From Nitrospinota bacterium (GTDB taxonomy: Bacteria; Tectomicrobia; Entotheonellia; J063), in contig RFHZ01000241.1 of assembly GCA_003696125.1 (NCBI GenBank), positions 1 through 6,133 on the forward strand: a stretch of DNA of 6,133 nt. The letters are read 5' to 3'. Position numbers and translations under genes: made by a program. Each line of letters opens with the position of its first letter. Within the stretch, counting starts at the first letter, position 1. Positions 1,728 through 6,099 of the stretch are shown piece by piece. The notes beneath the pieces are model-generated. The model did no database searches. It worked only from the letters and a program-made list of their open reading frames with translations, and was not told where the DNA came from.

Positions 1728-1874
1728 TTACTCCGACGGTTGCTCTGTCTGTTTGGAAGGCTGCTCGACCGAGCATGTACGTGCCATTCAGGTCGGAATG
1801 CCCCATTTGGGGAGTACCCAAACCTGCAACACCAACCAGAATACCACTATACCCAGTATCCATAAGATATCCAT
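1728..1874 (-). CDS. Putative 48-aa single-pass membrane selenoprotein (in-frame UGA = Sec29)
   Basis: I do not recognise a named family. The ATG at 1874 has a good Shine-Dalgarno (AAGGA at 1885-1881, 6-nt spacer). Residues 3-21 are almost entirely Ile/Leu/Val/Trp/Phe, one transmembrane helix, followed by LPKWGIPT and then TGA at 1790-1788. If the TGA is selenocysteine, the frame continues with MARTCSVEQPSKQ and ends at TAA (1730-1728), giving 48 residues with a U-x4-C pair (U29, C34) just past the membrane helix. A hairpin 12 nt after the TGA, with its GGUC loop starting at nt 18, has the loop, spacing and upstream U of the E. coli fdhF SECIS. Positive charges K23, R32 and K41 lie after the helix, which hints at a cytoplasmic C-terminus. 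The gene sits 75 nt after the anti-sigma gene in the same direction. The alternative is a 28-residue membrane microprotein that ends at the TGA. Expected role, by inference: membrane thiol/selenol redox chemistry or sensing. Confidence 0.78.
1759..1785 (-). promoter_or_regulatory. Candidate bacterial SECIS hairpin for the UGA at 1790-1788
   Basis: On the minus strand, UGCUC (1775-1771) pairs perfectly with GAGCA (1766-1762) around the tetraloop GGUC (1770-1767). The loop begins 17 nt after the UGA. In E. coli fdhF the loop is also GGUC, lies 18 nt after the UGA on a 4-bp UGCA stem, and is preceded by a bulged U needed for SelB binding. Here a U (1775) likewise lies 4 nt before GGUC, although it could pair with A1762. 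GGC (1785-1783) and GCC (1761-1759) can close a lower stem around an asymmetric bulge. The fdhF facts are from memory of that well-studied element; the pairing is read directly. Confidence 0.75.
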
Positions 1875-1949: not shown

Positions 1950-2189
1950 TCACTCGAACAGTTGTTCCCATTTCTTACGCAGGGTTTGGTGCAACTGCTC
2001 GCGAAACTCTTGCGGCATCTCGTAAATCTCTTCTCCCTTATACAGGGTGATCGTTTTGCGAAGGGTATCGACAACTACCCGGCAGGGATCACATCCGGCC
2101 AGGTGCTGCTCAAACTGGGTACAGAGAGCAGGATCAATATCCCCATCAACGTAATCATTTAACAGGCGGAGTAGCTCTTCACACTTCAT
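1950..2189 (-). CDS. Zinc-binding anti-sigma factor (zf-HC2/ZAS type)
   Basis: A 79-residue soluble anti-sigma factor expected to bind and silence the ECF sigma factor encoded just upstream. The N-terminal half has the ZAS signature: C3, then H29-x3-C33-x2-C36 (in EQHLAGCDPC), ligands for one zinc ion. C23 is an extra cysteine outside that motif. The rest is a charged helical tail with no membrane segment, so it acts in the cytoplasm, like RsrA- or ChrR-N-type regulators rather than membrane-spanning ones. The ATG at 2189 overlaps the sigma-factor stop as ATGA and is preceded by GGGGGAG, typical of coupled sigma/anti-sigma pairs that need balanced synthesis. ZAS proteins often release sigma on thiol oxidation or zinc loss; whether this one does is inference. 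A small membrane selenoprotein gene follows 75 nt downstream. Confidence 0.92.
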   Translation of the reverse strand: MKCEELLRLLNDYVDGDIDPALCTQFEQHLAGCDPCRVVVDTLRKTITLYKGEEIYEMPQEFREQLHQTLRKKWEQLFE

Positions 2190-2893
2190 GTTCTCCCCCT
2201 TGATCCAGCTTCTTTCCCTGGGGCAACGGCCTCCATCGTGGAGGGATGAAAAGAGGTGTCATGATGAGGGGAGAGGCGCCGTTTCTCCTCCCCAAAGATG
2301 CGGGTGAGTTTTTCGCGGAGCAGGAGGCGTGCCCGCAGGAGCCGGACCTTCACGTTGGCTTCGCTGATTCCTAATAAGTCAGCCGTCTCTCTGATACTCA
2401 GTCCCCTAACATCGCGAAGGATAAAGACGAGTCGAAGCTTCTCTGGAAGGGTGGCAATCGTCTCCTCCAGGACCCGCCGCAGTTCCTGCTGCTCAAGTAA
2501 ACTCGCCGGATCACCACGCCAGTCTGCGATATACTCAGGGTGGGGAATGTCTCCCTCTGTCTCCTCTAAGCTGGCTTCTTCCAGGGAAAAGTGTCCAGGC
2601 CGACGTTTACGCAAGACCTTTAGCGCATTGTTGATGGCAATGCGGGTGACCCAGGTAGCAAAAGAGGCCTCTTCCCGAAACGTGGCTAAATGCTCTATCA
2701 CGTTAAGAAAGGTGGTTCGTACCACATCCTCGGCGTCTTCACGCTGCCGGACCATATGCATGGCCAGTGCGTATAAACGCCCTTCGTGTCGCTGAACCAG
2801 TTGCTCAAACGCTCTGTAGTCCCCGGCTTTGGCTTGGGCAACGAGTTGCCGCTCTTCTCTCGCTCCCCTGTCCCCTGTGTTTTGAGCGTTCAT
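2186..2893 (-). CDS. ECF-family RNA polymerase sigma-70 factor
   Basis: A 235-residue extracytoplasmic-function sigma factor that directs RNA polymerase to a specific regulon. Region 2 spans about residues 25-98, with the core-binding helix REDAEDVVRTTFL (51-63) and the -10 recognition segment SFATWVTRIAINNALKV (77-93). An acidic linker of about 45 residues follows. Region 4 covers about 140-195, with the -35-binding helix-turn-helix LSIRETADLLGISEANVKVR (165-184). Regions 1.1, 1.2 and 3 are absent, as usual for ECF proteins. About 38 residues follow region 4, rich in His, Ser and Glu with no recognised domain, longer than in a minimal ECF protein. The ATG at 2893 is chosen because AAGGAG (2904-2899) lies 5 nt upstream. 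It is the first gene of the leftward operon, with its anti-sigma factor overlapping its stop by 4 nt. Its own promoter looks sigma-70-like rather than ECF-like. Confidence 0.95.
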   Translation of the reverse strand: MNAQNTGDRGAREERQLVAQAKAGDYRAFEQLVQRHEGRLYALAMHMVRQREDAEDVVRTTFLNVIEHLATFREEASFATWVTRIAINNALKVLRKRRPGHFSLEEASLEETEGDIPHPEYIADWRGDPASLLEQQELRRVLEETIATLPEKLRLVFILRDVRGLSIRETADLLGISEANVKVRLLRARLLLREKLTRIFGEEKRRLSPHHDTSFHPSTMEAVAPGKEAGSRGRT

Positions 2894-3284: not shown

Positions 3285-4562
3285 ATGCTAGAGTGTATCC
3301 TGCCGGAAACAGGTGAGCAGGTGTTGATCAACATCAGGTGGGAGGCGATTTCCATAGCGATTGATGCCACCACGGTATTCACCTTTGACCGGGAAGGACG
3401 TCTGGTAGGAGCCTATCTGCACGGGAAAACCTTCCGGCGAGGCATGGATAACCGTGTGCTGGCGAAGTGGCGTGTGCGGGAAGACGGCAAACAACGTCGT
3501 ATCCGTCAATACCTCCCTCAGGAAGAGAAGCGAGAACTCCTTACGGCTATCTACCAGAAAGTCGCACAGATCTTTACTGCCCTGAGCACAGGGCAGATCG
3601 TACCGATCTCCTCCCCTGCCCTCTCCCTTGATACGGTAAGAGAGGACCTGGCACCGATACTCCGGTATGATTTCTCCCGTTTAGAAGCGGAGAGGAGGCA
3701 ATTCTACCAGGTGTATCGGCCGGTAGGTATCCTCCCTCCCGATCAATATGCCACCCTGGTTCTGCAGGCGACAGAAGGGTGCTCTTACAACCGCTGTACC
3801 TTCTGCCGTTTTTACAAAGATATTCCCTTCCGCATAAAGGAGGTGGCAGAATTCCGCCAGCATCTCCAGGCGGTGCAGCGTTTCTTTGGCCGTGCTCTTC
3901 GCTTAAAAAAGAGCCTCTTCTTCGGAGAGGCCAATGCCCTGGTGATTCCCCAACATCGGCTTCTTCCCCTGTTCGACGTGGTGAATGAGACCTTTACCAT
4001 TTGTCCAGAGGGATTATCAGCAGAGGCACGGAAACAATGGAAGCGTGAACATCCCCTCTCTTTCCGGGGAATATACGCCTTTCTGGACGCCTTTAGCTCC
4101 CGGAAAAAGAGGGTCGAGGATTTTCAGGCCCTCAAGGCCCGCAACTTGCGTCGTGTCTATATCGGGCTGGAAACCGGATCGAATCGTCTGTTGCAGCTTT
4201 TGCACAAGGCAGGGACGGCTCAGGATGCCATAGAAGCCGTACACAAAATCAAGGCCGGGGGGATAGCGGTAGGGATCATCGTGATGCTGGGAGTGGGCGG
4301 GGATCTGTTTGCCGAGACCCATGTAGAGGAAACCGGTGCGGTGTTACGGGAGATGCACCTTGAAGAGGACGATCTCCTCTACTTCTCCCCTTTGGTCGTC
4401 TCTCCGGATCTCGGGTATGCCCGGGAAGCCAACCGGCTGGGGATCCGTCCCCTGACGGAGGAGGAGATGGAGAGGCAAAAGGAGGCGATTCTACAAGCGT
4501 ATCAACCGGGACCGAATGGCCCGCGTGTCTCGCTCTACGATATTCAGGAGTTTATCTATTAA
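3285..4562 (+). CDS. Radical SAM enzyme with CX4CX2C cluster motif
   Basis: A 425-residue radical SAM protein of unknown substrate. Cysteines C166, C171 and C174 (TEGCSYNRCTFCRFYKD) should ligate the [4Fe-4S] cluster that cleaves S-adenosylmethionine. The spacing is CX4CX2C instead of the usual CX3CX2C; the GCSYNRCTFC form is one I associate with a COG1032-like subfamily, and the flanking Asn-Arg is consistent with that. FFGEANALV (212-220) supplies the GE-type SAM-binding segment, and YIGLETGSNRLL (292-303) and IIVMLGVGGD (331-340) are later barrel strands of the same fold. The first 160 or so residues lack cysteine motifs other than C4. They begin with a beta-rich part and continue with a helical part, and I cannot assign them to a domain. 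No C-terminal accessory cluster is evident. The ATG at 3285 is the first of the frame, with a purine-rich GGGAGAGAGAAGAGG ahead. First gene of a three-gene run. Confidence 0.9.
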   Translation: MLECILPETGEQVLINIRWEAISIAIDATTVFTFDREGRLVGAYLHGKTFRRGMDNRVLAKWRVREDGKQRRIRQYLPQEEKRELLTAIYQKVAQIFTALSTGQIVPISSPALSLDTVREDLAPILRYDFSRLEAERRQFYQVYRPVGILPPDQYATLVLQATEGCSYNRCTFCRFYKDIPFRIKEVAEFRQHLQAVQRFFGRALRLKKSLFFGEANALVIPQHRLLPLFDVVNETFTICPEGLSAEARKQWKREHPLSFRGIYAFLDAFSSRKKRVEDFQALKARNLRRVYIGLETGSNRLLQLLHKAGTAQDAIEAVHKIKAGGIAVGIIVMLGVGGDLFAETHVEETGAVLREMHLEEDDLLYFSPLVVSPDLGYAREANRLGIRPLTEEEMERQKEAILQAYQPGPNGPRVSLYDIQEFIY

Positions 4563-5313: not shown

Positions 5314-6099
5314 ATGTCTAACCAGAAGGTAATGGCGTTACGAGAGAAGCTCCTCTCCCGACTGGAGGAGATTGTCCACCATCTCCTCCAGCGTCAGGCA
5401 GAGCGCGAGGCGTTGCAGGAGCGGGAAATCGAGCTGGAAGAAGAGGCGCAAAAGGCGGATATTTCTCGCCTGTCTGATCAGTTGGAGGAACGGGAAAAAC
5501 GAGAGATCGAAGAGATCGATCTGGCCCTGCACAAGATAGCCCTTGGAACCTATGGGCTTTGCGAGCAGTGCCAGCGTCCCATCGAATGGAAACGGCTGGA
5601 TGCTTTACCGGCCGCCCGTCTCTGTCGGCGATGTGCCAAACAGGCTGAACAGACCCGGTCTCTTCTCCCCCTCCCGCAAGAGATACTCACCGCGACACCC
5701 CTTCCCCAGGAATACCAGGGTCTGGATGGTCGACAACTCCGTCAGGTCATTCAAGAAGAGCTGCGCAGCGATGGCCGGATCGATCTGGAAGAGCTGAAGA
5801 TCTCCTGCCGACAGGGGGTGGTGTATCTGGAGGGGGCGGTACCAAACGAGGGAGAACACCAGATCCTGTTGCATATCCTTACCGATGTCATGGGTTTAAC
5901 GGCGATTGTTGATCGGCTCCGCATCGATGAGATGATCTGGGAACGAGAGGATCGCACCCCTTCCCCTCCCCGTCCTCTGGTATCAGAAGACGAACAACTC
6001 CTCTACGACCTGGAAGAGTTGAGCGAGGATGTCTTTGAGGCCCAGGAGGAAGAGGTCCCTTACACTCCCCCGGATCGCCTGCAACCGGAACGGGAGTAG
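5314..6099 (+). CDS. TraR/DksA-type C4 zinc-finger protein fused to a BON domain
   Basis: A 261-residue, very acidic protein in three parts. Residues 1-78 are a long charged coiled coil (EREALQEREIELEEEAQKAD and onward), like the DksA coiled-coil arm that enters the RNA polymerase secondary channel. Residues 77-110 form the C4 zinc finger: GTYGLCEQC then ARLCRRC, ligands C83, C86, C104 and C107 (CX2CX17CX2C). Residues about 138-205 look like a BON domain, with alternating strands GVVYLEGAVPNEGEHQ (168-183) and a helix before the closing IVDRLRID. The last 55 residues are Pro/Glu-rich and probably disordered. There is no signal peptide or membrane helix, so it is cytoplasmic, unusual for BON, which is mostly envelope-associated. 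The usual DksA tip DxxDxA is not clear, so direct action on polymerase is uncertain. AGGAGG (5301-5306) lies 7 nt before the ATG. Last gene seen in the run; no terminator is visible in the 34 nt left. Confidence 0.88.
   Translation: MSNQKVMALREKLLSRLEEIVHHLLQRQAEREALQEREIELEEEAQKADISRLSDQLEEREKREIEEIDLALHKIALGTYGLCEQCQRPIEWKRLDALPAARLCRRCAKQAEQTRSLLPLPQEILTATPLPQEYQGLDGRQLRQVIQEELRSDGRIDLEELKISCRQGVVYLEGAVPNEGEHQILLHILTDVMGLTAIVDRLRIDEMIWEREDRTPSPPRPLVSEDEQLLYDLEELSEDVFEAQEEEVPYTPPDRLQPERE

Follow-up and report, generated by a model that had tools for sequence, protein, structure and literature searches.

Background

Small single-pass membrane selenoproteins are exemplified by SELENOS (VIMP) and SELENOK, which carry selenocysteine (Sec) in a flexible tail on the cytosolic side of the membrane; SELENOS forms a Cys-Sec selenenylsulfide that is reduced by thioredoxin. 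The known prokaryotic selenoprotein families (119 are listed in PMC13188914, among them TsoA-Y, GOS_B/C, the CC/Se motif family and YeeE/YedE) share with the gene described here a UGA codon, a bacterial SECIS hairpin (bSECIS) and a near Cys, and several of them are likewise thiol-redox proteins. In the bSECIS model, the apical loop lies 16-37 nt from the UGA and has G in its first two positions (PMC13188914).

The gene and its predicted product

The window analysed here, a stretch of 6,133 nucleotides from a Nitrospinota bacterium, belongs to a 990-contig draft genome with 8% contamination. The original prediction, which named no strand, described a membrane selenoprotein hidden behind an in-frame UGA. 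Its open reading frame lies on the minus strand and runs from 1874 to 1728, starting at an ATG and continuing through 28 codons, TGA and 19 open codons to a TAA, in agreement with every element of that description (Table 1). A ribosome-binding-site-like AAAAAAGGAA lies a few nucleotides 5' of the ATG, and the full product encoded is MDILWILGIVVFWLVLQVWVLPKWGIPT-U-MARTCSVEQPSKQTEQPSE. The plus-strand reading of positions 1728-1874 (LLRRLLCLF...) was discarded as containing nothing noteworthy. A 48-codon open frame with a single TGA is unremarkable alone; comparison of homologous sequences is what lifts it above chance.

AlphaFold2, run with a 30-sequence alignment, predicted a single helix at residues 2-23 with a pLDDT of about 90 over residues 1-20, and hydropathy reached 2.6 over residues 3-21. 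The tail bearing U29 and C34 was a low-confidence region of the same model.

Table 1. Coordinates of features in the window; those of the first row take in the TAA stop.
Feature	Position	Strand	Basis or remark
Membrane selenoprotein gene, 48 codons + TAA	1728..1874	-	Translation; TGA at the matching codon in homologues
In-frame TGA (U29)	1788..1790	-	Aligns with TGA in 77/80 and TGC in 3/80 homologues
Cys34 codon (TGC), conserved U-x4-C partner	1773..1775	-	Within the hairpin's 5' arm; 75/80 have Cys at +5
Single transmembrane helix, residues 2-23, predicted	1806..1871	-	AlphaFold2 and hydropathy
bSECIS-like hairpin UGCUC-GGUC-GAGCA	1762..1775	-	17 nt from UGA to loop; loop starts GG
zf-HC2 anti-sigma-like protein (HxxxCxxC)	1950..2189	-	Directly upstream; PF13490 5e-12
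ECF sigma factor	2186..2893	-	Overlaps the anti-sigma gene

Homologues and their distribution

A protein search of 20 relatives and the window's own genome already turned up, in two genomes of different lineages (G011 and G010), copies interrupted by a single in-frame TGA. A survey with a three-row profile found TGA-bearing matches in 39 of 386 genomes, and a 37-row profile matched 41 of the 386 at E <= 1e-4, adding G029 and G249, both of which have selB. From 84,980 named genomes, one scan listed 207 relatives, and the counts given below are for the 80 of these that were kept. They span many phyla, with members in KSB1, Desulfuromonadales, Geobacter, Planctomycetes, Acidobacteria, Armatimonadota, Zixibacteria, Calditrichaeota, Spirochaetes, Latescibacterota, Anaerolineae and others. 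A tblastn search of plasmids gave no match.

The original prediction had proposed looking for homologues with Cys in place of Sec. Such forms exist and are rare: the codon is TGA in 77 and TGC in three of the 80 kept relatives, the three (L104, L113 and L120) all being Deltaproteobacteria. No Cys form was found in the 386-genome survey, and the family is therefore nearly obligate for Sec. One further copy (L038:1498-1605, in G249) reads ACG CGA ATG AGC GAC GGA TGC AAG TAA, with CGA (Arg) where the TGA would stand; it reaches a stop seven codons further on and seems to be either in decay or wrongly assembled.

Conservation across the UGA

The 30-member alignment revealed a shared plan of one helix, LP[KR]xG[VI]xT-U-M/L-S-x-x-C and a variable hydrophilic tail, and the family motif can be written [FYW]-[VIL]-L-P-[KR]-x-G-[VI]-x-T-U-M-S-x-x-C, followed by a short disordered hydrophilic tail. 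Residues up to GVPT before the U were fixed by the scan pattern, so that their invariance in the 80-member set arises from how that set was selected; residues after the U lay outside the pattern. Beyond the TGA, Met at +1 is present in 63/80 copies, Ser at +2 in 62/80 and Cys at +5 in 75/80. The Cys is encoded by TGC in 40 copies and TGT in 35, and the Ser by both the TCN and AGY boxes. Past the TGA, the frame is free of stops for 15 codons or more in every one of the 77 TGA copies, and the other two frames are so in 68% and 42%; the chance of 77 open frames would be about 8e-25 if the cases were independent, which they are not. The residue conservation, the variety of synonymous codons and the open frame together imply selection on amino acids past the UGA.

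These data bear directly on the possibility that the TGA is an ordinary stop, ending a 28-residue membrane peptide with non-coding sequence beyond it. One helix followed by LPKWGIPT would make a complete micropeptide, which is what a conventional gene caller would report, and the CGA copy with its early TAA shows that the site can erode. However, the conserved Cys at +5 with both of its codons, the Ser at +2 from both boxes, the three TGC homologues, the SECIS hairpins and the strict co-occurrence with selB (see below) all speak against termination, a reading that is very improbable and, on these aligned sequences, already contradicted. Homologues that ended at the TGA with unrelated sequence beyond would have told against the original prediction; conservation of U-M-S-x-x-C past the codon shows the opposite. 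The terminal stop is itself TGA in 31 of the 80 copies, and the codon is therefore not generally reassigned. That figure, the replacement of the residue by Cys in homologues and the presence of SECIS and selB, with nothing specific in its favour, make reading of the TGA as Trp or another amino acid through suppression or a code change scarcely credible.

SECIS hairpins and Sec machinery

An Rfam scan of the window gave no match, and the judgement on a SECIS element consequently rests on hairpin statistics. A perfect stem of at least 7 bp fitting the bSECIS model was found in 50 of 78 genes, against 2.3 expected from dinucleotide shuffles, and a stem of at least 6 bp in 59 of 78, against 7.1 expected. 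The most frequent loops are GGA, the commonest, and GTC, at +23. In 29 genes the loop has 3 nt and lies at +23, and along their stems G-C, A-U and C-G pairs replace one another in compensatory exchanges; the rate of pairing in this group is biased, because its members were picked for having a hairpin, although the exchanges are still informative. The hairpin of the window has a stem of only 5 bp, overlaps the coding sequence, and appears in the minimum free energy (MFE) structure of a 36-nt fold, where it is weak (z -1.0), and not in that of a 50-nt fold. The 50-nt MFE z-scores are weak across the family (mean -0.8), and the geometry-specific hairpin test, rather than this z-score, is the informative one.

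The original prediction also depended on a Sec machinery in the same genome, and all of selA, selB, selC and selD were detected there. The tRNA-Sec scored 74 bits, selA 526 bits and selB 386 bits, and selD 136 bits over the part present on its contig. The selD gene (G000:C684:3-299, L139) is cut by the contig end. It carries an in-frame TGA, and SelD is therefore itself likely to be a selenoprotein. In the wider survey, selB was above the cut-off in all 39 genomes with the family, compared with 170 of the 386 overall (hypergeometric p 8e-16).

Aligned UGA and Cys codons, conservation downstream, a bSECIS and the Sec machinery, the features expected of a bacterial selenoprotein, are thus all found for this family. 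Judged from this comparative evidence, the 48-residue membrane protein is almost certainly a selenoprotein, its UGA being decoded, as we would expect, by SelB and tRNA-Sec with the help of the overlapping hairpin.

Gene neighbourhood

On the minus strand of the window, the genes for the ECF sigma factor, the zf-HC2 protein and the selenoprotein lie in this order; genes for two DrrA-type ABC ATPases come after that of the selenoprotein. The zf-HC2 protein also matched the RsrA-like model TIGR03988 (1e-7), below that model's cut-off. Two deltaproteobacteria (L077, L088) and one Vicinamibacterales genome (L127) have similar sigma/zf-HC2 pairs close to their copy of the selenoprotein gene. In the window, the gene is probably in one operon with the pair upstream of it, an ECF sigma and a zinc-binding anti-sigma factor of redox-responsive type. 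Elsewhere in the window, the plus strand encodes a radical SAM protein (3285-4562), with a Pfam match and without an NCBIfam equivalog, and a protein that joins a DksA/TraR-type zinc finger to a BON domain (5314-6099), an unusual pairing.

Across loci, the neighbours are genes of thiol and sulfur redox chemistry: thioredoxin, TlpA, CcdA, OsmC, rhodanese, DUF302, DUF6132, FmdB, ArsR and ECF sigma/zf-HC2. When genes within 1.5 kb were compared with those beyond 3 kb at the 80 loci, several families were enriched close by; the counts, which are uncorrected and come from loci that are not independent, were 12:0 for FmdB and 10:0 for DUF6132 (both all on the same strand), 11:0 for TlpA, 14:2 for thioredoxin, 11:1 for ArsR and 10:1 for CcdA. 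FmdB, thioredoxin/TlpA, ArsR, YgaP-TM/RND and DUF302 came up again in a second sample, of 33 loci, that shares some of its members with the first. For two of the Cys forms, L104 and L120, the gene order is thioredoxin, DUF6132, the Cys form and a CcdA/thioredoxin fusion. A rhodanese follows the gene in L089 and a YgaP-like TM protein (DUF2892) in L087. The neighbourhoods are mosaic, and many loci are without any recognised common neighbour.

FmdB-type zinc ribbons start about 60-110 nt 3' of the Sec codon in twelve loci (L003, L042, L046, L060, L062, L068, L072, L073, L078, L099, L118 and L138). Since selenoproteins have been reported among FmdB proteins, a functional link between the two is possible. 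DUF6132, with the sequence IGCxSGxCPITSNP and its conserved C-x3-C, lies beside the gene in L068, L070, L073, L078, L087, L091, L099, L104, L114 and L120.

Proposed role

The U-x4-C directly after the membrane helix, which the original prediction had singled out, is indeed the family signature; the selenenylsulfide switch that it was said to form is, for this reason, plausible. The explanation we favour, at roughly even odds, is a Sec/Cys redox relay anchored in the membrane and working for a pathway of the thioredoxin/CcdA type. The basis of the topology assumed in this proposal is wholly charge: the C-side flank of the helix carries +1.75 without acidic residues and the N-side flank -0.5. 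With basic residues on the C-flank only, the positive-inside rule would have the helix insert N-out/C-in and place Sec29 at the cytoplasmic surface of the membrane. There, Sec29 and Cys34 could form a reversible selenenylsulfide, which a thioredoxin-type protein would reduce. As to what the relay works with and which way electrons move, we infer that it would either give electrons to a second membrane protein or accept persulfide sulfur or oxidised thiols from it, in a pathway handling thiol or sulfane-sulfur stress; a CcdA/DsbD-type carrier and DUF6132, the small protein with C-x3-C, are candidates for this partner.

The neighbourhood can be read differently. Rhodanese, the YgaP-like TM protein (DUF2892), DUF302, OsmC, ArsR and RND efflux neighbours characteristically belong to operons for reactive-sulfur or metal stress, and would be consistent with a real selenoprotein that carries sulfane sulfur or metal at the membrane, with the U and C as ligands or as a persulfide carrier and C34 available as co-ligand. 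However, among partners whose function is known, thioredoxin, TlpA and CcdA recur most often, and Cys forms sit between thioredoxin and CcdA-thioredoxin genes, making this carrier function unlikely, if worth keeping in view. Less probable again is a small redox-sensing regulator or subunit, in which the U-C pair would signal to the ECF sigma/zinc anti-sigma pair or stabilise a larger membrane complex. The protein has a size typical of small membrane regulators, and the sigma/zf-HC2 genes adjoin it in the window, with related pairs near the gene in the three loci named above, but most loci are without a sigma pair, a sigma gene lying within 1.5 kb in only 5 of 80.

Novelty and significance

Searches of Pfam and NCBIfam (June 2026) with the window protein and with 30 and 37 members found no family model, the matches being limited to weak ones and to the read-through neighbour gene of one row. 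NCBIfam selenoprotein models (including TsoY, GOS_B/C, DF/DG and CC/Se) matched neither the window protein nor the 30 and 37 members, and a profile search of PDB sequences gave chance-level helix matches only. None of the entries in the 2026 review of 119 prokaryotic selenoprotein families (PMC13188914) shows this motif or build, and literature text searches for the motif returned nothing relevant; the families of Haft and Tolstoy 2025 were judged through NCBIfam and the review table. The family that the original prediction could not name thus appears to be undescribed as far as the libraries and literature searched reach.

The family occurs in about a tenth of the sampled bacterial genomes and in 23% of those bearing selB, yet is missing from Pfam, NCBIfam and the review. 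Plausible reasons for this gap are its very short length, gene callers that stop at UGA and the rarity of Cys homologues. By the account of its authors, deep-Sep may overlook a selenoprotein that has no Cys homologues, which may explain the absence of the family from catalogues. The protein could rank among the smallest membrane selenoproteins, and in uncultured phyla its gene is a ready indicator of Sec use. It also lies near recurrent, unexplained thiol- or sulfur-stress genes (DUF6132, DUF302 and FmdB). Since Geobacter and Trichlorobacter carry copies, with TGA in both Geobacter argillaceus (L074) and Trichlorobacter thiogenes (L108), work in culturable species may be possible.

Comparison with known systems

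None of the known prokaryotic selenoprotein families has the motif GVPT-U-MSxxC, and in most of them the domains are known and Cys homologues are many, in contrast to the three in 80 found here. DUF6132 (PF19628) is also a small membrane protein, with a conserved C-x3-C, and adjoins the gene in 10 of 80 loci; it is a separate family and a candidate partner, not a homologue. The F0F1 ATP synthase subunits b/b' were considered and rejected, the NCBIfam matches being weak (best 0.0015) and confined to at most 7 of 37 members. Their N-terminal helix is alike in being a membrane helix that ends LPRxG, but the family described here has no subunit-b stalk, the window protein ending after 48 residues, and subunit b has no Sec/Cys; the resemblance is probably convergent or due to chance.

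By analogy, the nearest likeness is to SELENOS and SELENOK: the predicted structure has a single helix, at residues 2-23, and Sec in a low-confidence tail. They differ in that the motif and length are other, Sec lies 5-6 residues from the helix and not at the far C-terminus, the bacterial SECIS is inside the coding region, and there is no ER setting; the comparison is one of analogy, and homology is not claimed. On this analogy we suggest, tentatively and as somewhat less than an even prospect, that this nearly obligate-Sec micro membrane family could act as a general selenol/thiol relay from cytoplasmic thioredoxin to membrane carriers or sulfane-sulfur handling, a counterpart of SELENOS and SELENOK.
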